Shown in pieces: positions 44,201 to 57,566 of a stretch of 64,000 nucleotides of DNA. The notes under the pieces are model-generated. The model had not been told where the DNA came from, searched no databases, and was given only the letters and a program-made list of their open reading frames with translations. The DNA comes from Thioalkalivibrio thiocyanoxidans ARh2 (GTDB lineage Bacteria; Pseudomonadota; Gammaproteobacteria; Ectothiorhodospirales; Ectothiorhodospiraceae), in NCBI RefSeq assembly GCF_000385215.1, contig NZ_ARQK01000051.1, forward strand, positions 1 to 64,000, in the 5' to 3' direction. Numbering within the stretch: the stretch's first letter is position 1; every line of letters begins with the position of its first letter. The translations under genes and the position numbers were made by a program.

Positions 44201-44291
44201 ATCGGCGTCTCCTTGAGGCTTGTGGGAACTCGACGGTCCCGGCCTGGGTCGCTACGGTGCCTGCCACTTTGACGTGACCAAGGAGAGTCCC

Positions 44292-44648
44292 ATGCGCTTT
44301 ATTGTTTCTGTCACCGCCGGTACCGACGACCCGACCCGCGCCACCCTCGGCATGATCGCCGCCAACGTGGCCAAGCAGCAGGGCCATGACGTGACCGTCT
44401 GGCTGCAGGGCGAGGCCGTGAACATCGCCAACCGCAATGTCTACGACAAGATCGTCGGCCACAACATGCCGGCGATGAAGGACATCGTGGATTCGCTGGT
44501 CGAGGAAGGCGTCCCGTTCTGGGCCTGCGAGGCCTGCGCCAAGGGCCGCGACGTCGGCGAGCACAACTTCCTGCCGAACGCCGAGATGGCCGGCATGGGT
44601 CAGTACGTCCAGGCCGTTGCCGATTTCGACCGCTCCATGAGCTTCTGA
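44292..44648 (+). CDS. DsrE-family protein (YchN-like)
   Basis: A 118-residue cytoplasmic protein starting MRFIVSVTAGTDDPTRATLG, with GGAGAG before the ATG. The cysteine pair WACEACAKGRDV matches the CxxC-type site of YchN/DsrE-like small sulfurtransferases. It is distinct from the DsrE in the sHdr cluster and lies alone, with its own terminator, in front of nasR. A general sulfur-relay role is likely, but its partners are unknown. Confidence 0.85.
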   Translation: MRFIVSVTAGTDDPTRATLGMIAANVAKQQGHDVTVWLQGEAVNIANRNVYDKIVGHNMPAMKDIVDSLVEEGVPFWACEACAKGRDVGEHNFLPNAEMAGMGQYVQAVADFDRSMSF

Positions 44649-44707: not shown

Positions 44708-44741
44708 TGTGCCAGTCCCTCGAACTGGCACATCGCATGCT
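44708..44741 (+). promoter_or_regulatory. Sigma-54 promoter of nasR with an overlapping inverted repeat
   Basis: TGGCAC-ATCGC-ATGCT (44726-44741) has a perfect -24 element, the required GG-N10-GC spacing and a good -12 element. Transcription would start near 44752, leaving a short leader to the ATG at 44776. The -24 element is also the right arm of a perfect 9-bp inverted repeat, TGTGCCAGT / ACTGGCACA (44708-44716, 44724-44732). Protein bound there could block RNA polymerase. Confidence 0.75.
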
Positions 44742-44775
44742 TGTTTGTTCCGGGAATGATCCACGGACGACGAGC

Positions 44776-46110
44776 ATGACCCAGAACACATCCCCGAGTT
44801 TTTCCTTCGAAGAGGCCATTGGCGATTTCCTGGTCGCCTCGCGCAAGTGCGAGGTGGTGAGCCTGGAGCGTCTGCTGGAGGCGGTGCAGCTGGTCGGGCG
44901 CATCCGCGCGCTGGTGCATCAGCTCCAGCGCGAACGCGGTGCCTCCAGCCTCTGGATCGGCTCCGGTGGCCAGCGCTATGCGGACGAGCTGGCACAGTAC
45001 CGGGCCCAATCCGACACTACCGCCCAAGTGTTTCGCGAACACCTCGATGGCTGGCTGGAGCCCGGGGCCTGTGCCTACGCGCGCAACCGTCTGCTGGGGC
45101 GCATGGCGCTGGCGCTGCATGGCCTGTCGGGTCTGCCCAGCCTGCGGGCGGAGGTCAGCGAACGCACGCTCTCGCCGATGGAGGCGATGCGCGGCTTCAG
45201 CGAGCTGATCCGGTCGCTGCTGGCGGTGGTGTTCGAGGCCGCCGATTCGGCCACGGACCCGGAGGTCTCGCGGGCCCTGGTGGCCCTGCTGAACTTCATG
45301 CAGGGCAAGGAGCTGGCGGGCCAGGAACGCGCGATCGGGGCCGCCGGCTTTGGCCGGGGCGCGTTTGATGGCGAACTGCGCCAGTCCCTGCTGCACCGGA
45401 TCGATACGCAGGAACGCTCGTTTCGGATCTTCTCGGAATTTGCGCCGGAGTCGGCTTGTGCGGCCTGGCAGGGACTGCAGGGGGCGGGCTTCGCGGCGGA
45501 GGTCGAGCGGCTGCGTCGTCAGGCCTGCACCCAAGGCGATTCCCGGGGCGATTCCCGGGACGATCCCCTGCCGGACCCGGCCCGCGCCGAGACCTGGTTT
45601 GCCTGCACAACCGCGCGCATCGACGCGATGAAGGAGATAGAGGACCTGCTGGAGATGCACCTGAACGAGCGTTGCTCGGCACGCATCACGGCGGATCGCG
45701 CGGACCTGGGCGCGGTGCGTGACCGCATCGCCCAGCTGGCGGAATCCGAGCTGCATGACAGCGTTCCGTATGCCGTGTTCTTCGGCGCGCCGGAGGGCTT
45801 GGATCACGAGGAGGATGGCGAGACCGTGCTCAACGTCCCGATCGTCGGGCATTCGGTGATGGACCTGGTGCAGCGCCAGGCGGCCCGGCTGCAGTCGGTG
45901 GAGGACGAGCTGCATGCGGCACGTCAGGCCCTGGCCGAGCGCAAGACCATCGAGCGCGCCAAGGCCCTGCTGATCCAGCACCGCGGCCTCAGCGAGGACC
46001 AGGCGTACAAGCTCCTGCGCCAGACGGCGATGAACCAGAACCGGCGCCTGGCCGAGGTCGCCGAGGCGACCGTCGCGATGTCCGACCTGCTGGGCAAGGG
46101 CGGCCTGTAG
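44776..46110 (+). CDS. nasR: Nitrate/nitrite-responsive antiterminator NasR (NIT + ANTAR)
   Basis: A 444-residue regulator. The N-terminal two-thirds is a NIT sensing domain (KCEVVSLERLLEAVQLVGRIRALVHQLQRERGASS at its start; conserved arginines follow). The C-terminal 55 residues are an ANTAR RNA-binding domain (RAKALLIQHRGLSEDQAYKLLRQTAMNQNRRLAEVA). In Klebsiella NasR binds a hairpin leader when nitrate or nitrite is present and prevents termination ahead of the nas operon. The start at 44776 was chosen because an earlier ATG (44737) lies within the sigma-54 promoter. A matching leader precedes nrtA. Confidence 0.9.
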   Translation: MTQNTSPSFSFEEAIGDFLVASRKCEVVSLERLLEAVQLVGRIRALVHQLQRERGASSLWIGSGGQRYADELAQYRAQSDTTAQVFREHLDGWLEPGACAYARNRLLGRMALALHGLSGLPSLRAEVSERTLSPMEAMRGFSELIRSLLAVVFEAADSATDPEVSRALVALLNFMQGKELAGQERAIGAAGFGRGAFDGELRQSLLHRIDTQERSFRIFSEFAPESACAAWQGLQGAGFAAEVERLRRQACTQGDSRGDSRDDPLPDPARAETWFACTTARIDAMKEIEDLLEMHLNERCSARITADRADLGAVRDRIAQLAESELHDSVPYAVFFGAPEGLDHEEDGETVLNVPIVGHSVMDLVQRQAARLQSVEDELHAARQALAERKTIERAKALLIQHRGLSEDQAYKLLRQTAMNQNRRLAEVAEATVAMSDLLGKGGL

Positions 46111-46150
46111 CCAGCCTTGGGAAAGGGATGCCGGTGGGGGTGCCCCTGGG

Positions 46151-46221
46151 GGAGCGGGCTTGCCCGCGAAGCCCCTGCCAGTGGCGGACACTGGCAGGGG
46201 CTTCGCCGCCAAGGCGGCTCC
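46151..46221. repeat. REP-type palindrome (REPIN-like pair)
   Basis: Two inverted copies of a REP-like unit, GGAGCGGGCTTGCCCGCGAA and (other strand) TAGGAGCCGCCTTGGCGGCGAA, flank a perfect 16-bp hairpin (46168-46183 with 46189-46204, 5-base loop). The outer arms GGAGC/GCTCC also pair, giving one 71-base fold. The unit closely resembles pseudomonad REP consensus sequences. It lies between nasR and the nrt control region. Confidence 0.75.
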
Positions 46222-46230
46222 TACAGGTAG

Positions 46231-46279
46231 TGCACCAGCCCGGTTCATCTGCACCGCCAGCGCGCCCCAGGTTGGTGCC
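46231..46279 (+). promoter_or_regulatory. Two NtrC-like enhancer sites upstream of nrtA
   Basis: Site 1 (46231-46247) is TGCACCAGCCCGGTTCA; site 2 (46263-46279) is CGCCCCAGGTTGGTGCC. Against the enterobacterial NtrC consensus TGCACY-N4-TGGTGCA they match 11 and 10 of 13 defined positions. They are 32 bases apart (about three helical turns) and lie 150-195 bases upstream of the predicted start, the usual NtrC enhancer arrangement. Confidence 0.6.
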
Positions 46280-46400
46280 TCCGGGATCGGCTTCGGGACT
46301 TCGGGCTTCCCGCAAACGTTCGACCCGATGTTCGAAACCATCCGATTTTCCCGTGCCATGGCGCGATTGTGCCTCGCGGGGTCGATTCGTAACGGCGAAT

Positions 46401-46416
46401 TGGCACACCTCCTGCA
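46401..46416 (+). promoter_or_regulatory. Sigma-54 promoter of the nrt-nir-nas operon
   Basis: TGGCAC-ACCTC-CTGCA has a perfect -24 element and GG-N10-GC spacing. The start would be near 46427, just before the first leader hairpin. Sigma-54 dependence fits nitrogen control of nitrate assimilation. Confidence 0.8.
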
Positions 46417-46429
46417 AGAGTATCGGTAA

Positions 46430-46510
46430 GACGAGCCAACGGCGGTTCGTCGCCTGACAACAGGGAGACCCGGTGACCGGGCCTCCGATGGGACTGGACA
46501 AAGGCGTCCA
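46430..46510 (+). promoter_or_regulatory. ANTAR-type dual-hexaloop RNA target (NasR binding leader)
   Basis: Hairpin P1 has stem GACGAGCC/GGTTCGTC (46430-46437, 46444-46451) and loop AACGGC. Hairpin P2 has stem TGGAC/GTCCA (46495-46499, 46506-46510) and loop AAAGGC. Both six-base loops have A at position 1 and G at position 4, the hallmark of ANTAR targets. A GC-rich hairpin (46464-46486) lies between them. P2 shares bases 46500-46508 with the left arm of the following terminator, so the two structures exclude each other. Confidence 0.8.
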
Positions 46511-46554
46511 TCACCCGGCTGCAAACGCGGCCGGGCTGATGCGACGCCTTTTTT
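46500..46554 (+). terminator. Regulated leader terminator upstream of nrtA
   Basis: AAAGGCGTC (46500-46508) pairs with GACGCCTTT (46543-46551). An inner stem CCCGGC/GCCGGG (46514-46519, 46530-46535) strengthens it, and six T residues end it (46549-46554). This would stop transcription 40 bases before nrtA unless NasR stabilises the alternative P2 hairpin. Confidence 0.82.
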
Positions 46555-46594
46555 CGTTTCTGGGCGGAAATCTGACGAGGGGAGTGAACCCGAA

Positions 46595-47899
46595 ATGACC
46601 GATTACACGAATGACACGAAAAAGACCTCCGGCCTGTCGCGCCGGCGTTTCCTGGGCGGCATGGCCGCCGGGATTGGAGCGACCGCGCTGGGCGTTTCCG
46701 GGGCCGCGCCCTGGGGCTATGCGAAGGCCGGAAACGGCAAGCCGGAGACCACCGAGGCGAAGCTGGGCTTTATTGCCTTGACCGATGCCGCACCGCTTTT
46801 CGTCGCGCTGGAGAAGGGCTTCTTCGCCGATCACGGCATGCCGGATGTGCAGGTGCTGAAGCAGTCCTCCTGGGGCACGGTGCGCGACAACCTGGAACTG
46901 GGCTCGCGCCGCGGCGGCATCGATGGCTCCCACATCCTGACGCCGATGCCCTACCTGATCCATCGCCGCGGTACGCCGATGAGCATCCTCGCGCGGCTGA
47001 ACCTGGCCGGGCAGTGCATCTCGGTGGGCGATGAGTACGCCGATCTGAAGGTCGGCCTGGATACCGGGGAGTTCAAGGAGGCGCTGGCGGAGAAGCGCGC
47101 CGGCGGCGACGAGGTCCGCGCGGCGATGACCTTCCCCGGCGGCACCCATGACCTGTGGATTCGCTATTGGATGGCGGCCGGCGGGATCGACCCGAACCGC
47201 GACATCTCCACCATCGTCGTGCCGCCGGCGCAGATGGTCGCCAACATGCGGGTCGGCTCCATGGACACCTTCTGTGTCTGCGAGCCCTGGAACATGCAGC
47301 TGATCAACCAGGGCATTGGCTACACCGCGAACACCACCGGCGAGCTCTGGCACAACCACCCGGAGAAGGCGCTGGGCATGCGCGCGGACTGGGTGGAGGC
47401 CAACCCGAACGCGGCCCGCGCCCTGACCATGGCGGTGATGGAGGCGCAGATGTACTGCGAGGACCCGGCGAACATCGAGGAGGTCGCCGAGATCTGCTCG
47501 CGCCGGCGCTACATCCATGCCCCGTACGGCGACATCATCGACCGCATGCAGGGGCACTTCGACTACGGCACCGGCCGCGTGGTCGAGGACCACCCCGACC
47601 GCATGCGCTTCTGGAGCGACCAGGCCTCCTATCCCTTCAAGAGCCACGATCTGTGGTTCCTCACCGAAAACATCCGCTGGGGCTATATGCCGCCGGATCT
47701 CGACATGCAGGCGTTGGTGGACGAGGTCAACCGCGAGGACATCTGGCGCGAGGCGGCCGACACGCTCGGCATCGACTCGGCCGACATCCCCGAGTCCACC
47801 TCGCGCGGCAAGGAAGAGTTCTTCGACGGCAAGGTCTTCGACCCGGAAGACCCGCAGGCCTATCTCGACAGCCTGGAGATCAAGGCGCTCGCGTCCTGA
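46595..47899 (+). CDS. nrtA: Nitrate ABC transporter substrate-binding protein
   Basis: A 434-residue periplasmic protein with a twin-arginine signal (SRRRFLGGMAAGIGATALG). It belongs to the NrtA/CmpA/NasF family; LGFIALTDAAPLFVALEKGFFADHG and TFPGGTHDLWIRYWMAAGGIDP are typical. It binds nitrate or nitrite for the permease and ATPase that follow. It is the first gene after the regulated terminator, with GAGGGGAG upstream of the ATG. Confidence 0.93.
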   Translation: MTDYTNDTKKTSGLSRRRFLGGMAAGIGATALGVSGAAPWGYAKAGNGKPETTEAKLGFIALTDAAPLFVALEKGFFADHGMPDVQVLKQSSWGTVRDNLELGSRRGGIDGSHILTPMPYLIHRRGTPMSILARLNLAGQCISVGDEYADLKVGLDTGEFKEALAEKRAGGDEVRAAMTFPGGTHDLWIRYWMAAGGIDPNRDISTIVVPPAQMVANMRVGSMDTFCVCEPWNMQLINQGIGYTANTTGELWHNHPEKALGMRADWVEANPNAARALTMAVMEAQMYCEDPANIEEVAEICSRRRYIHAPYGDIIDRMQGHFDYGTGRVVEDHPDRMRFWSDQASYPFKSHDLWFLTENIRWGYMPPDLDMQALVDEVNREDIWREAADTLGIDSADIPESTSRGKEEFFDGKVFDPEDPQAYLDSLEIKALAS

Positions 47900-47946
47900 C
47901 GCGACGGCCCGACGTCCCTGCACAGACGATTCAAGAGGATTCGAAG

Positions 47947-48879
47947 ATGAGTGCCATTCTCGATCGCAATATGACCTTCGGCGCCGGGCGCGAACGCCCG
48001 GCGGCGAGGGAAACCTCCACGGCCCCGGTGGCCCGACAGACAGCGCCTCCGGCCCGGTCCGGCGGGGCACCCGCCGATCCCGGCGTCTGGTCGCGGCGCC
48101 TGCGCAACGCCGCCACGGTGGTCCTGCCGCCGATGATCGTGACCGCCGTTTTTTTGCTCATCTGGGAGATGATGTCGTCTTCCCAGGGAGCCGTGTTGCC
48201 CGCCCCAAGTCAGGTGATTACCGACACCTGGGAGCTGATCGTCAATCCGTTCTATGACTACGGCGGCAACGATGTGGGCATGGCCTGGCAACTGCTCGCG
48301 AGTCTCGAGCGGGTGGCCTACGGCTACGCCCTGGCGGTAGTCGCCGGGATCGGTCTCGGGGTGCTGGTTGGCCAGTCCACCTGGGCGATGCGCGGGCTGG
48401 ACCCGCTGTTCCAGGTGCTGCGCACCGTGCCGCCGCTGGCCTGGCTGCCGATCTCCCTGGCCGCGTTCCAGGCCAGCAACCCGTCGGCCATCTTCGTGAT
48501 CTTCATCACCGCGATCTGGCCGATCATCATCAACACCTCGGTCGGCATCCGGAACATCTCGCAGGACTACGTCAACGTGGCCCGCGTGTTGCGCCTGAAC
48601 GGCTTCGAGTACTTCACCAAGATCATGCTCCCGGCCGCCGCGCCGTATGTCTTCTCCGGTCTGCGCATCGGCATCGGCCTCGCCTGGCTGGCGATCGTCG
48701 CCGCCGAGATGCTGATCGGCGGGGTCGGCATCGGCTTCTTCATCTGGGATGCCTGGAACGCCTCCATGCTCAGCGACATCGTGCTGGCCCTGGTCTACGT
48801 CGGCCTGGTCGGGTTCTTCCTCGACCGCCTGGTCGCGATCGTCGGCAACTGGGTCACCCGCGGCACGCAGGCCGGCTGA
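47947..48879 (+). CDS. nrtB: Nitrate ABC transporter permease
   Basis: A 310-residue inner-membrane protein with about six membrane segments and the permease signature NVARVLRLNGFEYFTKIMLPAAAPYVFSGLRIG in two parts, which contacts the ATPase. It matches the NrtB/NasE group. A Pro/Ala-rich cytoplasmic N-terminal extension of about 50 residues precedes the first membrane segment (VVLPPMIVTAVFLLIWEMM). Confidence 0.93.
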   Translation: MSAILDRNMTFGAGRERPAARETSTAPVARQTAPPARSGGAPADPGVWSRRLRNAATVVLPPMIVTAVFLLIWEMMSSSQGAVLPAPSQVITDTWELIVNPFYDYGGNDVGMAWQLLASLERVAYGYALAVVAGIGLGVLVGQSTWAMRGLDPLFQVLRTVPPLAWLPISLAAFQASNPSAIFVIFITAIWPIIINTSVGIRNISQDYVNVARVLRLNGFEYFTKIMLPAAAPYVFSGLRIGIGLAWLAIVAAEMLIGGVGIGFFIWDAWNASMLSDIVLALVYVGLVGFFLDRLVAIVGNWVTRGTQAG

Positions 48880-48905
48880 GCCGGCCCCCTCACAGGAGAA
48901 ACATC

Positions 48906-49706
48906 ATGACCAGTTATCTCTCCATCGAACACGTCCACAAGACCTTTGGCGAAGGCCCTTCGGCCAGCGAGGTGCTGCGCGACGTCGACCTGCACGTGGA
49001 CCGCGGCGAGTTCATCTCCATCATCGGCCACTCCGGCTGCGGCAAGTCGACGGTGCTCAACATCGTCGCCGGGCTGCTGGAGACCAGCACCGGCGCGGTG
49101 ATCCTGGATGGCAAGGAGGTCAGCAAGCCGGGTCCGGATCGCAGTGTCGTGTTCCAAAACCACTCCCTGCTGCCCTGGCTGACCGTGCGCGACAACGTGG
49201 CGCTGGCGGTGGACAAGACCTTCAAGGGCACCAAGTCCGCCGCCGAGCGCCGCGAGTGGATCCTGCAGACGCTGGACATGGTCGGCATGAGCCACGCGCT
49301 GGACAAGCGCCCGGACGAGATCTCCGGCGGCATGAAGCAGCGCGTGGGCATCGCCCGGGCGCTGGCGATGGAGCCGAAGGTCCTGCTGATGGACGAACCC
49401 TTCGGCGCGCTGGACGCGCTGACCCGGGCCCATCTCCAGGACGAGGTGATGCGCATCCAGTCGGAGCTGGGCAATACCGTGCTGATGGTCACCCACGACG
49501 TGGACGAGGCGGTGCTGCTGTCCGATCGCATCGTGATGATGACCAACGGCCCGGCCGCGACCATCGGCGAGATCCTGGAGATCGACCTGCCGAAGCCGCG
49601 CGAGCGCCTGGCGATGGCCGACAACCCCCAGTACAACCACTACCGGGCCGAGGTGCTGCGCTTCCTCCACGAGCGCCACAAGAATCCCGAATCGGAGGCC
49701 GCCTGA
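48906..49706 (+). CDS. nrtC: Nitrate ABC transporter ATP-binding protein
   Basis: A 266-residue ATPase. Walker A is GHSGCGKST, the signature is ISGGMKQRVGIARALAM, and Walker B is VLLMDEPFGALD. It corresponds to NasD of Klebsiella or the single-domain NrtD of cyanobacteria, without the regulatory NrtA-like fusion of cyanobacterial NrtC. Its stop overlaps the nirB start by one base. Confidence 0.92.
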   Translation: MTSYLSIEHVHKTFGEGPSASEVLRDVDLHVDRGEFISIIGHSGCGKSTVLNIVAGLLETSTGAVILDGKEVSKPGPDRSVVFQNHSLLPWLTVRDNVALAVDKTFKGTKSAAERREWILQTLDMVGMSHALDKRPDEISGGMKQRVGIARALAMEPKVLLMDEPFGALDALTRAHLQDEVMRIQSELGNTVLMVTHDVDEAVLLSDRIVMMTNGPAATIGEILEIDLPKPRERLAMADNPQYNHYRAEVLRFLHERHKNPESEAA

Positions 49707-52186
49707 TGGATACCGCGAACAACAGGCCGCGGCTGGTCCTGATCGGCAACGGCATGGCCGGGATGCGCACGGTCGAGGAGCTTTTGAAGCTCAAGCCGGA
49801 CATGTACGACATCACCGTGTTCGGTGCCGAGCCCTGGGGCAACTACAACCGCATCATGCTCTCGCCGGTGCTGGCCTCGGAGAAGACCGTCGACGAGATC
49901 ATGCTGAACGACGATGCCTGGTATGCCGAGCGCGGCATCACCCTGCACAAGGGCAGGCGCATCGAGCGGATCGACCGCGTGAACCGGCGGGTGATCGCCG
50001 AGGACGGCACCGAGGCGCCCTATGACCGCCTGCTGCTGGCGACCGGCTCCGACCCGGTGATGATCCCGGTGCCGGGGCACGAACTGGAGGGCGTAGCCGC
50101 CTTCCGCGACATCCACGATGTGGACGCGATGCTCGCGGCCAGCCGCGCATACCGGCATGCGGTCGTGATCGGCGGCGGGCTGCTGGGACTGGAGGCCGCC
50201 AACGGCCTGATGCGCCAGGGCATGGAGGTCACCGTGGTGCACCTGATGGATCACCTGATGGAGCGCCAGCTGGATGCCGAGGCCGCCGGGATGCTGCGCG
50301 GCTCGCTGGAGGAGCGCGGCATGCGTTTTCGCATGGCGCACCAGACCGAGGCGATCCTGGGCGAGGACCGCGTCACCGGCGTGCGCTTCACCGACGGCAG
50401 CGAGATCGCAGCCGATCTGGTGGTGATGGCGGTCGGCATCCGCCCGAACACCGCGCTGGCCGAGTCCGCCGGGCTGCACTGCGAGCGCGGCGTGGTGGTG
50501 AACGACACCATGCAGACCTATGACCCGTCGATCTACGCGGTCGGCGAGTGCGTGCAGCACCGCGGCGCCACCTACGGCCTGGTCGCACCCCTGTGGGAGC
50601 AGGCGAAGGTCTGCGCCAACCACCTGGCCGAGTACGGCATCGGGCGCTACGAGGGCTCGATGACCTCCACCAAGCTGAAGGTGACCGGGATCGACCTGTT
50701 CTCCGCCGGCGACTTCACCGGCGACGAGACCACCGAGGACCTGGTGTTCAAGGATGCCGCGCGCGGCGTCTACAAGCGCCTGGTGCTGAAGGACAACCGC
50801 ATCCAGGGGGCGGTGCTGTACGGCGATACCCTGGACGGCTCCTGGTACTTCCAGCTGATGCGGGACGCCACGCCGGTGGCCGACGTCCGCGAGAACCTGC
50901 TGTTCGGCCAGGCGCATGTCGGCGACTCCGGCCACGGCGACGAGGCCTCGCGGGTTGCGGCCATGCCCGACGAGGCCGAGATCTGCGGCTGCAACGGCGT
51001 GTGCAAGGGCGAGATCGTCCAGGCGATCAGCGCGCACAAGCTGTTCACGCTGGAGGACGTGCGCGCCCACACCAAGGCGTCGAACTCCTGTGGCTCCTGC
51101 ACCGGGCTGGTGGAGTCCGTGCTCGCGACCACGCTGGGCGGCGACTACTCCGACGCCCCGGCGAAAAAGCCGGTCTGCGCCTGCACCGACCACAGCCACG
51201 ACGAGGTGCGCGCGGCCATTGCCCGCGACGGGCTGAAGACCATGGACGCGGTGTTCGAGGCCCTCGACTGGAAGACCCCGAACGGCTGCCATGTCTGCCG
51301 TCCGGCCCTCAACTACTACCTGCTGGCGGCCTGGCCGAAGGACTACCAGGACGATGCCCAGTCGCGCTTCATCAACGAGCGCGCCCACGGCAACATCCAG
51401 AAGGACGGGACCTATTCGGTGGTACCGCGCATCTGGGGCGGCGTGACCACCCCGGCCGAGCTGCGCGCGATCGCCGAGGTGGCCGAGCGCTACCGCGTGC
51501 CCACGGTCAAGTTCACCGGCGGCCAGCGCATCGACCTGCTGGGGGTGCAGAAGGCCGACCTGCCGGCGATGTGGCGCGATCTTGGTGCCGCCGGGTTTGT
51601 CTCCGGCCATGCCTACGGCAAGGCCCTGCGCACGGTGAAGACCTGTGTCGGCTCCGAGTGGTGCCGCTTCGGCACCCAGGACTCGACCGGGCTTGGCATC
51701 CAGCTGGAGCGGATGACCTGGGGCTCCTGGACCCCGCACAAGTTCAAGATGGCGGTCTCCGGCTGCCCGCGTAACTGCGCCGAGGCGACGATCAAGGACC
51801 TGGGCGTGGTCTGCGTGGACTCGGGCTACGAGCTGCACGTGGGCGGCAACGGCGGGGTGAAGGTCCGTGCCACCGACTTCCTCTGCAAGGTGGAGACCGA
51901 GGCCGAGGTGCTCGAGTACGCCGGGGCCTTCATGCAGTTCTATCGCGAAGACGCGCGCTACCTGGAGCGCACCGCCCCGTGGATCGAGCGCGTCGGGCTG
52001 ACCCGGGTGAAGGAACGCCTGGTGGACGACGCCGGGAACCGCGCCGCGCTGTACGCCCGCTTCCTGGAGTCGCAGGAGGTGGCGCAGGTGGACCCCTGGG
52101 CCGAGCGGGCCGCCGGGCATGCGGCGCACGAGTTCATCCCGATCACGCCGGTGGACGCAGCCCCGCGCCAGGGGGTGTCGGCATGA
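49706..52186 (+). CDS. nirB: Assimilatory nitrite reductase, large subunit NirB
   Basis: An 826-residue NAD(P)H-dependent enzyme that reduces nitrite to ammonium. Domains in order: FAD/NAD-binding (LVLIGNGMAGMRTVEELL at the N-terminus, VVIGGGLLGLEAANGLM near 155), two BFD-type 2Fe-2S regions (CGCNGVCKGEI; CACTDHSHDEV), a ferredoxin-like half domain, and the siroheme/4Fe-4S domain with TCVGSEWCRFG and SGCPRNCAEATIKD. Siroheme is provided by cysG downstream. NirD overlaps it by 4 bases. Confidence 0.95.
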   Translation: MDTANNRPRLVLIGNGMAGMRTVEELLKLKPDMYDITVFGAEPWGNYNRIMLSPVLASEKTVDEIMLNDDAWYAERGITLHKGRRIERIDRVNRRVIAEDGTEAPYDRLLLATGSDPVMIPVPGHELEGVAAFRDIHDVDAMLAASRAYRHAVVIGGGLLGLEAANGLMRQGMEVTVVHLMDHLMERQLDAEAAGMLRGSLEERGMRFRMAHQTEAILGEDRVTGVRFTDGSEIAADLVVMAVGIRPNTALAESAGLHCERGVVVNDTMQTYDPSIYAVGECVQHRGATYGLVAPLWEQAKVCANHLAEYGIGRYEGSMTSTKLKVTGIDLFSAGDFTGDETTEDLVFKDAARGVYKRLVLKDNRIQGAVLYGDTLDGSWYFQLMRDATPVADVRENLLFGQAHVGDSGHGDEASRVAAMPDEAEICGCNGVCKGEIVQAISAHKLFTLEDVRAHTKASNSCGSCTGLVESVLATTLGGDYSDAPAKKPVCACTDHSHDEVRAAIARDGLKTMDAVFEALDWKTPNGCHVCRPALNYYLLAAWPKDYQDDAQSRFINERAHGNIQKDGTYSVVPRIWGGVTTPAELRAIAEVAERYRVPTVKFTGGQRIDLLGVQKADLPAMWRDLGAAGFVSGHAYGKALRTVKTCVGSEWCRFGTQDSTGLGIQLERMTWGSWTPHKFKMAVSGCPRNCAEATIKDLGVVCVDSGYELHVGGNGGVKVRATDFLCKVETEAEVLEYAGAFMQFYREDARYLERTAPWIERVGLTRVKERLVDDAGNRAALYARFLESQEVAQVDPWAERAAGHAAHEFIPITPVDAAPRQGVSA

Positions 52187-52554
52187 GCTGGCTTGCGATC
52201 TGTCCGCTCGAGGACATCCCGTCGCTGGGTGCGCGCGTGGTGGCGGGCCCGAACGGCGACATCGCTGTGTTCCGCACCGCGGATGACCGCGTCTTTGCCC
52301 TGCGCGACCAGTGCCCGCACAAGGGCGGACCGCTGTCGCAGGGCATCGTCCACGGCGAGCGCGTGACCTGCCCGCTGCACAACTGGGTGATCGACCTGCA
52401 GTCCGGCGAGGCCACCGGGGCGGACAGTGGCTGCACCCATGCCTTCCCGATCCGGGTGACCGACGGTCAGGTATGGCTGGACCTCTCCGGCGCCACGGCC
52501 AACGCCGCGGACGATCCCGCGGCGGTGCCGTCCGCCTGTCGCGAGGCGGGCTGA
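52183..52554 (+). CDS. nirD: Nitrite reductase small subunit NirD (Rieske-type)
   Basis: A 123-residue Rieske-fold protein. Unlike many enterobacterial NirD proteins it keeps the full 2Fe-2S binding pair, CPHKGGPLSQG and CPLHNWVIDL, so it can carry a cluster. It starts inside the nirB stop codon (ATGA) and ends one base before nasA. Confidence 0.93.
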   Translation: MSWLAICPLEDIPSLGARVVAGPNGDIAVFRTADDRVFALRDQCPHKGGPLSQGIVHGERVTCPLHNWVIDLQSGEATGADSGCTHAFPIRVTDGQVWLDLSGATANAADDPAAVPSACREAG

Positions 52555-52555
52555 G

Positions 52556-55246
52556 ATGGCCACGGCCGAGCCGGTGACCCGCACCACCTGCCCCTATTGC
52601 GGGGTGGGCTGCGGCGTGGAGGTGACCGCGACGCCGGGCGGCGAGTTTCCGGTCGCGGTGCGCGGCGACCCCGCCCATCCCGCCAATGCCGGGCGCCTGT
52701 GCTCCAAGGGCGCGGCGCTGGCCGAGACCCTCGACGACGAGGGCCGGCTGCTGCACCCAAAGGTCGGCGGGCGGCGTGTCGACTGGGAGACCGCGCTGGA
52801 TCATGTCGCGGACGGCTTTCGCGAGACCATCGCGGCGCACGGGCCGGATGCGGTCGCCCTGTACGTCTCCGGGCAGATCCTGACCGAGGACTACTATGTG
52901 GCCAACAAGCTGATGAAGGGCTTCGTCGGCTCGGCCAATATCGACACCAACTCCCGGCTCTGCATGTCCACGGCCGTGGCCGCCCATACCCGCGCCTTCG
53001 GCGAGGATGGCGTGCCGGGAAGCTATACCGACCTCGAGCAGGCCGATCTGGTCGTGGTCACGGGCTCCAACATGGCCTGGGCCCACCCGGTTCTGTTCCA
53101 GCGCCTGCAGGCCGCCCGCGCGGCGCGCCCGGAGATGAAGCTGGTGGTGATCGACCCGCGGCGCACGGCCACCGCCCAGGCGGCCGACCTGCACCTGCCG
53201 CTGGCGCCGGGCACGGATGCCTGGCTGTTCAACGGCCTGCTGGACCACCTGCGCCGGGAGGATGCGCTGGACCCCGGCTTCCTGGAGCGCCACGTCGACG
53301 GATTTGCCGATGCCCTGGCGGCCGCGCGGGCCTCCAGCCCGTCGATCGCCGCGACCGCCGAGGCCTGCGAGCTGGAGCCGGAGGCGGTGGCGACGTTCTT
53401 CCGGTGGTTTGCCCGTACCGAACGCACCGTGACGGCCTTCTGCCAGGGCATCAACCAGTCCGACAGCGGCGTGGACAAGGCCGGGACGATCCTCAACGTG
53501 CACCTGGCCACCGGTCGCATCGGGCGCCCGGGCATGGGCCCGTTCTCGCTGACCGGCCAGCCGAACGCGATGGGCGGGCGCGAGGTCGGCGGGTTGGCCA
53601 GCCAGCTGGCCGCCCATATGGGCTTCGACGACGCGGCCCTGGATCGGGTCGGCCGTTTCTGGGGCACACCGAACCTCGCCCGCCAGCCGGGGCTGAAGGC
53701 GCTGGACCTGTTTCGCGCGGTCGAGTCGGGGCAGGTGAAGGCGATCTGGATCATCGGCACCAATCCGCTGTTCAGCCTGCCCGAGGCCGCGCGCTTCGAG
53801 CAGGCCCTGGCCGAATGCCCGCTGGTCGTGGTCTCCGACTGCGTGCGCGAGACCGAGACCATGCGGGTGGCCGATGTGCTGCTGCCAGCGACCACCTGGG
53901 GCGAGAAGGACGGCACGGTGACCAACTCCGAGCGCCGCATCTCGCGCCAGCGCCCGTTCCGCGCGCCCCCGGGCGAGGCCCGGCACGACTGGTGGGCGTT
54001 GGCCCGGGTCGCGCAGCGGCTGGGGTTCGCCGCAGCCTTTCCCTATGCCCGCCCCGCCGAGATCTTCCGCGAACATGCGGCGCTGTCCGCTTTCGAGAAC
54101 GACGGCACGCGCGACTTCGACATCGGCGCGCTGGCCGGGCTGTCCGACGCCGAGTACGACGCCCTGGAGCCGGTGCAGTGGCCGCTGCCGGCGGGGAGCC
54201 GGACGGGCGCCGAGCACCTCTATGCCGATGGCCGTTTCTTTACCGCCAATGGCCGGGCGCGGCTCGCGGCCGTGACCCCGCAGGCCCCGACCGACCCGGT
54301 CGATGCCGACTATCCGCTGCGCCTGAACACCGGCCGCATCCGCGACCAGTGGCACAGCATGACCCGCACCGCACGCACCCCGCGCCTGAGCGCGCATCAG
54401 CCGGAGCCGTTCGTCGAGATCCATCCGGTGGATGCCGGGCTGTTCCGGGTGCAGGCCGGCGACCTCGCCGAGGTGACCAGTCGCCACGGTCGCTTGCTGG
54501 CACGGGTGCAGGTGAGCCGCGAGCAGCGCCCGGGCAGCGTGTTCGTGCCCATGCACTGGAGCCGGCCGATCGCGCGGCTTGCCCGGGTCGATGCGCTGGT
54601 GCCCGCGCATGTCGACCCGGTCTCCGGGCAGCCGGCGTTCAAGCACACGGCCGTGGCCGTGCGCCCGGCGGCGCTGGACTGGCACGGCTTCGTGCTGAGC
54701 CGCGAGCCGATCGCCGCGCCGGAGGCGGACTACGCGGTCACCGCCCGCGGTCCCCGGCACCTGCGCACCGAACTGGCCGGGCGGGGCGCACCGCCCACGA
54801 TGGATGCGTGGCGCGAACGCCTGGACGGGCCGGGTGAATGGCTCGAGTTCGCCGACCCCGCCGGGGGGCGCTACCGCGCCGCTCGGATCCACGAGGGCCG
54901 GCTCGCCTGCATGCTGTTCGCGGGCCCCGACCGGGGCCTGCCCGAGCGCGAGTGGCTGGCCGGCCTGTTCGCGGCCGAGACGATCAGCGATACCGAGCGC
55001 ATGGCGTTGCTGACCGGGCGACCGCCGAACGGCCAGGCCGCGCGCGGGCGCATGGTCTGCGCCTGCTTCGGCGTGGACGAGACGCGCATCCGCACCGCGA
55101 TCCGCGAGCAGGGGCTGGCCAGCTGCGAGGCCGTGGGTGCGGCCCTCGAGGCCGGGACCAACTGTGGCTCCTGCCGACCCGAGATCCAGACCTTGTTGAA
55201 CGAGGAAGCCGAGGCGCCCACGGACCCCGTGGCGCGGGAGGGATAA
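52556..55246 (+). CDS. nasA: Assimilatory nitrate reductase catalytic subunit NasA
   Basis: An 896-residue molybdopterin enzyme. The N-terminal 4Fe-4S motif is TTCPYCGVGCGVEV with a later cysteine in GRLCSKG. The likely molybdenum ligand cysteine is in NSRLCMSTAVAAH. Near the C-terminus is a BFD-like 2Fe-2S domain (MVCACFGVDETRIR ... GTNCGSCRPEI), which occurs in NasA enzymes that accept electrons directly from ferredoxin or a small reductase. No signal peptide: it works in the cytoplasm. It makes nitrite for NirBD. Confidence 0.95.
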   Translation: MATAEPVTRTTCPYCGVGCGVEVTATPGGEFPVAVRGDPAHPANAGRLCSKGAALAETLDDEGRLLHPKVGGRRVDWETALDHVADGFRETIAAHGPDAVALYVSGQILTEDYYVANKLMKGFVGSANIDTNSRLCMSTAVAAHTRAFGEDGVPGSYTDLEQADLVVVTGSNMAWAHPVLFQRLQAARAARPEMKLVVIDPRRTATAQAADLHLPLAPGTDAWLFNGLLDHLRREDALDPGFLERHVDGFADALAAARASSPSIAATAEACELEPEAVATFFRWFARTERTVTAFCQGINQSDSGVDKAGTILNVHLATGRIGRPGMGPFSLTGQPNAMGGREVGGLASQLAAHMGFDDAALDRVGRFWGTPNLARQPGLKALDLFRAVESGQVKAIWIIGTNPLFSLPEAARFEQALAECPLVVVSDCVRETETMRVADVLLPATTWGEKDGTVTNSERRISRQRPFRAPPGEARHDWWALARVAQRLGFAAAFPYARPAEIFREHAALSAFENDGTRDFDIGALAGLSDAEYDALEPVQWPLPAGSRTGAEHLYADGRFFTANGRARLAAVTPQAPTDPVDADYPLRLNTGRIRDQWHSMTRTARTPRLSAHQPEPFVEIHPVDAGLFRVQAGDLAEVTSRHGRLLARVQVSREQRPGSVFVPMHWSRPIARLARVDALVPAHVDPVSGQPAFKHTAVAVRPAALDWHGFVLSREPIAAPEADYAVTARGPRHLRTELAGRGAPPTMDAWRERLDGPGEWLEFADPAGGRYRAARIHEGRLACMLFAGPDRGLPEREWLAGLFAAETISDTERMALLTGRPPNGQAARGRMVCACFGVDETRIRTAIREQGLASCEAVGAALEAGTNCGSCRPEIQTLLNEEAEAPTDPVAREG

Positions 55247-55248
55247 GC

Positions 55249-56715
55249 ATGGAACACCTGCCGATTTATATGCAGTTGCACGGCCGCGAGGCCCTGGTCG
55301 TCGGGGCCGGGCCGGTGGCCACGCGCAAGGCGGCGCTGCTGCTGGAGGCCGGGGCGCGGGTGCGCCTGCGGGCCCCGACGTACAGCGAGGCCGCCGAGCG
55401 CCTGCTGCGCGAGCAACCGGGGTCGATCAGCCGCGATCCGGGTATCTATGACACCGAATGCCTGGATCGTGTGGCGGTCGTGATCGCTGCCACCGACGAT
55501 GCGGCGGTGAACCGCCAGGTTTCGGAGGATTGCGTTGCGCGCTCGATCCCGGTGAACGTGGCCGACCAGCCCGAGCTCTGCAGCTTTATCCTGCCGGCGA
55601 TCGTGGAGCGCGGGCCGCTGACCATCGCGATCGGCTCCGGTGGCCGGGCCCCGGTGCTGGTGCGCCTGCTGCGCGCGAAGATCGAGAGCCTGATCCCGGC
55701 CGGCTATGGCCGGCTGGCCGATCTCGCCGGGCGGCTGCGCGACCGGGTGCGTGCCCGTTTCGAGCACGTGAATGCCCGCCGCGCCTTCTGGGAGCGGGCC
55801 TTTGCCGGGCCGGCCACCGAGCTCGCCCTGGCCGGGCGCATGGACGCGGCCGAGGCGCGCCTGGAACAGGAACTGGCGGATGCCGCAACCAGCACGCCGG
55901 GCGAGGTCTACCTGATCGGCGCCGGGCCGGGCGATCCCGACCTGCTGACCTTTCGCGCGCTGCGCCTGCTGCAGCAGGCGGATGTGGTCGTCTACGACCG
56001 GCTGGTGTCCTCCGAGGTGGTGAACCTGGCGCGGCGCGAGGCCGAACGCTTCTATGTCGGCAAGGAACGCGACCACCACTGCGTGCCGCAGGAGGAGATC
56101 AGCGCACTGCTCTCCCGGCTGGCGCGCGAGGGCAAGCGCGTGGCGCGGCTGAAGGGCGGCGACCCGTTCGTGTTCGGCCGTGGCGGCGAGGAGCTGGACG
56201 TGCTGGCGCGCGACCGCGTGGCCTACCAGGTCGTCCCCGGCATTACCGCGGCCAGCGGCTGCGCGGCCTATGCGGGCATACCGCTGACCCACCGCGACCA
56301 TGCCCAGTCGGTGCGGTTCATCACCGGCCATACCCGCGAAGGGCGGCTGGATGTGGACTGGTCGCAGCTGACCAGTACCCGCGAGACCCTGGTGTTCTAC
56401 ATGGGCCGCAAGGGGGTGGGCGAGATCTGCCGGGGGCTGAAGGGTGCCGGCCGCGCCGGGCAGACTCCGGCGGCGATCATCGAGAACGGCACCACCGCCC
56501 GCCAGCGCGTGGTCAACGGCACGCTGGATACGCTGGCCGCACGTGCCGAGCGTGAGCAGGTGGGTTCGCCCAGTTTGATCGTGATCGGCGAGGTGGCGGC
56601 CTGCCACGCACGTCTGGCCTGGTTCCAGCCGGATTCCGGGACCACGACAGTGTTTCCGCAGCCGATGCCGATGTCGGGGGCAGGGGCGCGGGCCGCGGCA
56701 GCGAGCGCGGCGTGA
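55249..56715 (+). CDS. cysG: Siroheme synthase CysG (fused)
   Basis: A 488-residue trifunctional enzyme. The N-terminal precorrin-2 dehydrogenase/ferrochelatase part (LVVGAGPVATRKAALLLEAGA) is fused to uroporphyrinogen-III methyltransferase (VYLIGAGPGDPDLLTFRALR ... LKGGDPFVFGRGGEE ... VVPGITAASG). It makes siroheme for NirB, which explains its place in the nitrate operon. An Ala-rich tail follows. It overlaps the next gene by four bases. Confidence 0.95.
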   Translation: MEHLPIYMQLHGREALVVGAGPVATRKAALLLEAGARVRLRAPTYSEAAERLLREQPGSISRDPGIYDTECLDRVAVVIAATDDAAVNRQVSEDCVARSIPVNVADQPELCSFILPAIVERGPLTIAIGSGGRAPVLVRLLRAKIESLIPAGYGRLADLAGRLRDRVRARFEHVNARRAFWERAFAGPATELALAGRMDAAEARLEQELADAATSTPGEVYLIGAGPGDPDLLTFRALRLLQQADVVVYDRLVSSEVVNLARREAERFYVGKERDHHCVPQEEISALLSRLAREGKRVARLKGGDPFVFGRGGEELDVLARDRVAYQVVPGITAASGCAAYAGIPLTHRDHAQSVRFITGHTREGRLDVDWSQLTSTRETLVFYMGRKGVGEICRGLKGAGRAGQTPAAIIENGTTARQRVVNGTLDTLAARAEREQVGSPSLIVIGEVAACHARLAWFQPDSGTTTVFPQPMPMSGAGARAAAASAA

Positions 56716-57566
56716 CGGCCGCATCCGTCCTGCCGGAGGTGGCGGCCAGTGGCCTCGCGGGTCGCCGCGTGGCTCTGCCGGAGAGCCGGGCGCTGGAGGT
56801 CTTCGCCGGCCTGCTGGAGCGGCGCGGGGCCGAGGTCTGGCGCTGCCCCCTGATCGCGATCCACGACAGCCCCGACCGTACGGCGATCGAGACCTGGCTG
56901 GACAAGGCCATCGAGGCGCCGTTCGACCGCCTGATCTTCCTGACCGGCGAGGGCTTCACCCGCCTGACCGGCTTTGCCCGGCGTGCCGGACGCGAGGACG
57001 CCTGGCTGGCGGCCGTGGCGCGGACGCCGACCCTGGTGCGCGGCCCCAAGCCCGGGCGGGCGATGAGGCCCTTCGGCGTGCGGCCGGATGCGGTCGCGGC
57101 GGCACCGACGACCGAGGGCATCATCGAGACCCTTTCCGGACAGGATCTGGCCGGGCAGCGTATCGGGGTGCAGCTCTACGGCGCGGAACCCAACCGCCGC
57201 CTGCTCGGGTTCCTGGAGCAGGCGGGTGCCGAGGTCTTTCCGGTCTGGCCCTACCGCTATGCGGATGCCGCCGAGACCGGGCGCGTGACCGGGCTGATCG
57301 AGGCCCTGATCGCGGGGGAGGTGGATGCGATCGCCTTCACCAGCCAGGCCCAGGTCCGGCGCCTGCTGCGTGTCGCCCGTGACTCGGGGCATCAGGATGC
57401 GCTGCTGGCAGCGCTCGGCCGCACCGTCATCGCCGCGATCGGCCCGGTGGTGGCCGACGAGCTGCGCACCCAGGGGGTGCACCCGACGGTGGTCCCCGAT
57501 GGGCAGTACTTCATGAAACCCCTGGTATCGGTGCTGGCTCGCCACTTGGGGACGGCCCGCAACTGA
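56712..57566 (+). CDS. hemD: Uroporphyrinogen-III synthase-like protein
   Basis: A 284-residue protein of the HemD family, starting with GTG inside the end of cysG. LAGRRVALPESRALEVFAGLLERRGAEVWRCP and VDAIAFTSQAQVRRLL ... VIAAIGPVVADELRTQGV mark the two lobes. It provides uroporphyrinogen III, the substrate of CysG. It may be a nitrate-operon copy in addition to a housekeeping hemD elsewhere; this cannot be told from the window. Confidence 0.85.
   Translation: MTAASVLPEVAASGLAGRRVALPESRALEVFAGLLERRGAEVWRCPLIAIHDSPDRTAIETWLDKAIEAPFDRLIFLTGEGFTRLTGFARRAGREDAWLAAVARTPTLVRGPKPGRAMRPFGVRPDAVAAAPTTEGIIETLSGQDLAGQRIGVQLYGAEPNRRLLGFLEQAGAEVFPVWPYRYADAAETGRVTGLIEALIAGEVDAIAFTSQAQVRRLLRVARDSGHQDALLAALGRTVIAAIGPVVADELRTQGVHPTVVPDGQYFMKPLVSVLARHLGTARN

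Follow-up and report, generated by a model that had tools for sequence, protein, structure and literature searches.

The window, a stretch of 64,000 nucleotides from Thioalkalivibrio thiocyanoxidans ARh2 (contig NZ_ARQK01000051.1, positions 1 to 64,000), carries nitrate-assimilation genes and control elements, all on the forward strand, with a control region sitting between a NasR-type gene and nrtA. The nasR-like gene (44737–46110, true start possibly 44776) encodes a product in which a NIT domain is fused to an ANTAR domain (198 and 66 bits, respectively, in a Pfam profile search), and both domains were aligned by phmmer with Klebsiella oxytoca NasR, 4AKK (E 7e-57). The product is thus a putative nitrate/nitrite sensor, its ligand binding being predicted from likeness to 4AKK. 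On the other side of the control region, the nrtA-like gene (46595–47899; Pfam NMT1_2, 341 bits), encoding the binding protein of a nitrate ABC transporter, would be the first gene controlled. The remaining operon (47155–57566) comprises nrtB, nrtC, nirB, nirD, nitrate reductase, cysG and uroporphyrinogen-III synthase genes. NCBIfam scores were above the cut-off for ntrB, ntrCD, nirB, nirD and CysG and under the equivalog cut-off for nitrate reductase and hemD; a molybdopterin nitrate reductase is the probable assignment, based on gene context and the sub-cut-off matches. A small DsrE/TusD-like gene (44220–44648) is located immediately 5′ of nasR, and its 3′ end is kept upstream of nasR in congeners.

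A preliminary description had read all parts of a Klebsiella nas-type switch between 46231 and 46594. Direct reading of the sequence located every one of the named elements, at or within 1-2 bases of the positions given for them. Two NtrC-like sites, said to be three helical turns apart, lie at 46231–46247 (TGCACCAGCCCGGTTCA; 11 of 12 consensus positions, one mismatch to TGCACC-N5-GGTGCA) and 46263–46279 (CGCCCCAGGTTGGTGCC; 9 of 12 positions, three mismatches), with a centre-to-centre distance of 32 bp. By sequence alone, site 2 does not stand out from random matches in the window (50 matches with at most three mismatches, 48.6 expected). Comparison of 11 Thioalkalivibrio sequences showed 13 of its 17 bases to be invariant, with ANNNTGGTGCC present in every row, while site 1, a good consensus match, is less conserved (9 of 17 positions invariant in congeners). 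Judged by conservation, site 2 is the better supported of the two candidate sites. A REP-like palindrome (46146–46226) adjoins the NtrC-like sites, and 36 genomic copies of its core, GGAGCGGGCTTGCCCGCGAAG, were counted at up to two mismatches; Rfam microRNA matches at 46139–46227 were rejected as chance matches to this palindrome.

The sigma-54 promoter at 46401–46416 (TGGCACACCTCCTGCA) shows the expected GG-N10-GC spacing exactly in its −24/−12 element, which is conserved in congeners and places the predicted transcription start at about 46427. In the leaders of Thioalkalivibrio and of three relatives, 36–37 bases consistently separate this element from the P1 loop. A second sigma-54-like element with GG-N10-GC spacing (44726–44741, TGGCACATCGCATGCT) precedes nasR itself; it is kept in all aligned Thioalkalivibrio congeners and lacking in the three distant relatives. 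This element suggests that the antiterminator gene may also be under general nitrogen control, as is K. oxytoca nasR. The genome encodes one protein above the NtrC equivalog cut-off (722.7 bits against 558.6) and one RpoN.

Downstream of the promoter, the P1 hairpin (46430–46451) has 8-bp arms (46430–46437 and 46444–46451) around the loop AACGGC, and the P2 hairpin (46495–46510), the antiterminator half of the switch, has 5-bp arms (46495–46499 and 46506–46510) around AAAGGC. Both hexaloops carry the A at position 1 and the G at position 4 noted in the preliminary description, and each is closed by a C:G pair, as in ANTAR target hairpins. The intrinsic terminator (46500–46554) is formed by pairing of 46500–46508 with 46543–46551, followed by a T run. 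Since its left arm, 46500–46508, is at the same time the loop and right arm of P2, as had been claimed, the two structures are mutually exclusive, which was also seen on comparing the alternative folds. The predicted transcript from 46427 folds with z = −5.7 against dinucleotide shuffles. Its fold with the terminator reaches −72.5 kcal/mol, compared with −59.7 kcal/mol when P2 is forced, and in folding of the nascent RNA, P2 appears after about 10 further bases have been transcribed. Termination should therefore be the default outcome, so that any antiterminator has to intervene co-transcriptionally. These energetics fit the needs of a model in which NasR would be the acting factor.

Conservation follows the same elements. 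The sigma-54 element, P1, P2 and terminator show 96–99% identity to the window in 11 distinct Thioalkalivibrio leaders; the stretch from the NtrC sites to the promoter shows 66% identity and that after the terminator 74%. The P2/terminator signature was found in 16 of the 47 genomes of the order, one copy each, a set identical to the 16 that encode a near-full-length NasR homologue (E < 1e-100); two other genomes of the order contain partial or weaker NIT matches only and have no signature. Beyond the order, all 35 other signature genomes among the matches listed carry an ANTAR gene, a figure for which the base rate in genomes without the signature was measured within the order only. The conservation of the leader region and its co-occurrence with NasR place it beyond chance. 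The NasR homologue belonging to leader L015 (genome G044) contains an in-frame TGA, with the leader intact.

Covariation, proposed earlier as a check on P1, P2 and the terminator, was borne out for P1 and was uninformative for the other two. Within the genus there is one compensatory change in P1 and one in the hairpin between P1 and P2; none was found in P2 and the terminator among congeners, where both hardly vary. For P1, 91 leaders among the matches listed were aligned by two anchors alone, the sigma-54 element and the loop plus its closing pair. Each outer position shows several pair types, and a mean of 4.44 of the five outer pairs is formed, versus 2.31 when the 3′ arms are swapped among the leaders (2000 trials, sd 0.13, maximum 2.74); counting this difference in standard deviations overstates independence, because the 91 leaders are mutually related. 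The outer bases of P1 thus covary as expected of base pairs.

In Klebsiella nas, the sensor gene lies next to the operon, and general nitrogen control is exerted by NtrC and sigma-54. The K. oxytoca nasR/nasF system shares with the present locus a one-component NIT-ANTAR sensor, two A1/G4 hexaloops and an overlapping terminator, whereas the transporter and reductase genes here are different and the linker between P1 and P2 is 43 nt long and bears a hairpin; the Kosakonia leader in our survey has a 12-nt linker. The logic described for Klebsiella NasR matches the whole switch (PMC7496416). The closest Rfam model is P11 of Pseudomonas (RF00625), which aligns over its whole length at 33.9 bits, under its 70-bit gathering threshold, and which exceeds that threshold on the equivalent leader of five Pseudomonas-type loci. 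P11 likewise has a sigma-54 promoter, P1, a linker hairpin, P2 (GGACAAAGGCGTCC) and a terminator, and its Rfam structure already includes a helix at the place of the linker hairpin. Its linker is mostly 22–27 nt, and its middle loop is often of the A1/G4 type, unlike the Thioalkalivibrio loop. By position and description, P11 probably equals NalA, which is described as a sigma-54 leader preceding the nitrate operon in P. aeruginosa (PMC3973561). A second model, narK RNA (RF03032), has a consensus that starts inside a sigma-54 promoter and contains CCAACGGCGG, corresponding to P1, and GACAAAGACGUC, a hexaloop resembling that of P2; the model is without a terminator, and P2 is not annotated as paired. 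It scores 32 here (threshold 43.2), and its match in L089 overlaps the equivalent leader. The Rfam matches in L026, L089, L092 and L131 suggest that both P11 and narK RNA represent portions of ANTAR target leaders.

The likeness to NalA raises the alternative that the terminated leader of about 125 nt is a trans-acting small RNA and attenuation is secondary. NalA is described as a small RNA needed for expression of the operon, and Rfam classes P11 as a gene and not as a cis-regulator. However, the P2/terminator overlap, the ANTAR hexaloops and the strict co-occurrence with NasR are all explained by a cis role, and a requirement for expression is the expected outcome of a leader deletion. We therefore regard a primarily trans-acting RNA as very improbable. 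Attenuation by a NasR-type, two-layer nitrate-assimilation switch very probably operates in Thioalkalivibrio: the Klebsiella logic proposed earlier is supported by the neighbouring NIT-ANTAR gene, NtrC, RpoN, the single leader in each NasR genome and the covariation of P1, and points to regulation by nitrate through NasR.

The mechanism proposed for this switch would run as follows. Under nitrogen shortage, phosphorylated NtrC at 46231–46279 would activate RpoN polymerase at 46401–46416, and the two would probably also act at the second sigma-54 site, before nasR. The transcript would fold P1 at once. Without nitrate, the terminator would consume the P2 sequence and transcription would end around 46554. 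When nitrate or nitrite is present, the ANTAR domain of NasR would be released by its NIT domain and would bind the P1 and P2 hexaloops and hold P2, allowing polymerase to proceed into nrtABC-nirBD-nasA-cysG. Folding of the linker hairpin would probably shrink the 43-nt linker to about 18 unpaired bases and thereby keep P1 and P2 in reach of each other.

That hairpin, described previously as an unusual GC-rich element at 46464–46486, is real and about a base wider (46463–46487, 10 pairs), within the linker at 46452–46494. The linker is 43–44 nt long in Thioalkalivibrio leaders, and the hairpin is conserved in the window's group. It is absent from three distant members of the order (L015–L017), whose linkers measure 11, 13 and 14 nt; this distribution is most simply explained by an insertion in the Thioalkalivibrio lineage. 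No second copy was found in the genome, and a mobile or repeated element was accordingly rejected. It was likewise rejected as an ANTAR hexaloop, as its loop has five bases (GTGAC, ATGAC, ACGAC or ATGCC) and is closed by G-C or G-U.

The 43-nt linker exceeds the ranges reported for eut (5–12 nt) and actinobacterial (2–25 nt) leaders, as do linkers in other nas leaders. The EutV antiterminators of Enterococcus and Listeria have the same A1/G4 dual hexaloop, with P2 exclusive with the terminator, but they differ in using a two-component sensor and a linker of 5–12 nt that, when lengthened, leaves little or no function (PMC3369931, PMC8934654). In E. faecalis eut, extension to 14 nt was harmful (PMC3369931), and adding 20 nt abolished EutV antitermination (PMC8934654). 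The actinobacterial survey retained only linkers of 2–25 nt (PMC8164766), and Ramesh et al. defined the motif with a variable linker, so that reported lengths set no defining limit. Because lengthened EutV linkers fail, an unfolded 43-nt linker should be harmful. Folding of the hairpin leaves about 18 unpaired bases, and together with the EutV limits this makes folding of the linker its preferred role: we propose, with moderate confidence, that it is a spacer keeping P1 and P2 within reach.

Two other roles were weighed. The hairpin lies between P1 and P2 and is transcribed ahead of the terminator, a position suited to a timing or pause hairpin, which would let NasR bind ahead of terminator synthesis, and hairpins of unrelated sequence occupy the same place in many other leaders; yet relatives in the same order have leaders with 11–14-nt linkers and no such hairpin, and we consider pausing rather unlikely. 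It might instead be a neutral decoration. It is the least conserved portion of the transcribed leader within the genus, only one of its pairs has changed on both sides, and one internal pair is usually non-standard. Against neutrality, 91.8% of cells pair in the 11 distinct sequences, the two-sided change (A-U to U-A) is compensatory, and EutV linkers fail at 14 nt or with 20 nt added, by which an unfolded 43-nt linker should do harm. The absence of any role is accordingly doubtful as well, and the spacer is retained as the preferred reading.

The view of the hairpin as unusual was not upheld. A wider set of nas leaders was collected by one exact P2/terminator pattern, with all counts made among the matches listed; the first C:G-closed A1/G4 hairpin downstream of the promoter was designated P1. 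Of the 90 listed leaders in which both the sigma-54 element and P1 could be recognised, 70 have linkers longer than 20 nt. Among the matches listed, the 46 linkers of at least 19 nt that are not near-duplicates are more stably folded than shuffled versions (mean z −2.1); 17 of these 46 contain an extra A1/G4 hexaloop hairpin, against 1.4 expected. In Pseudomonas and Burkholderiales leaders, a hairpin commonly separates P1 from P2, and it frequently bears an A1/G4 hexaloop itself. Given how P1 was designated, the Comamonadaceae middle hairpin may in truth be P1, which would make the 5′ hairpin the additional one. The Pseudomonas middle hairpin is closed by a G:C pair, and A1 or G4 is missing in a few sequences. 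Three serial A1/G4 hexaloop hairpins occur in L040, L076, L078, L091, L096, L138 and others. The survey of other leaders led us to reject the linker hairpin as a unique feature; a constant unpaired length for all folded long linkers was also not supported, lengths running from 1 to 31. In a class-wide survey, the exact pattern matched just 13 of 369 genomes, which did not suffice for tracing the hairpin further.

The type of switch is already known from Klebsiella and Pseudomonas, and the extra spacing hairpin is a local twist; linkers longer than EutV's with a hairpin are the sole part that a specialist might find new. Tentatively, and aware that this could well be wrong, we suggest that the nas leaders of proteobacteria are ANTAR targets of an extended-linker class, with a third hairpin between P1 and P2 that in many cases carries an A1/G4 hexaloop. 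The third hairpin of Thioalkalivibrio, without a recognition loop, would only fold the linker. If this is true, the accepted definition by dual hairpins and a short linker overlooks a large share of natural ANTAR switches. Published models conflict on whether P1 and P2 are bound simultaneously or sequentially, one at a time, and the hairpin-bridged linker would offer a clean natural test of the permissible distance between them. No earlier report of NasR-type antitermination in haloalkaliphilic, chemolithoautotrophic sulfur oxidisers was found in the literature searched; the present locus, in which both control layers are intact, would add these organisms to the known range of this nitrate-dependent mechanism.
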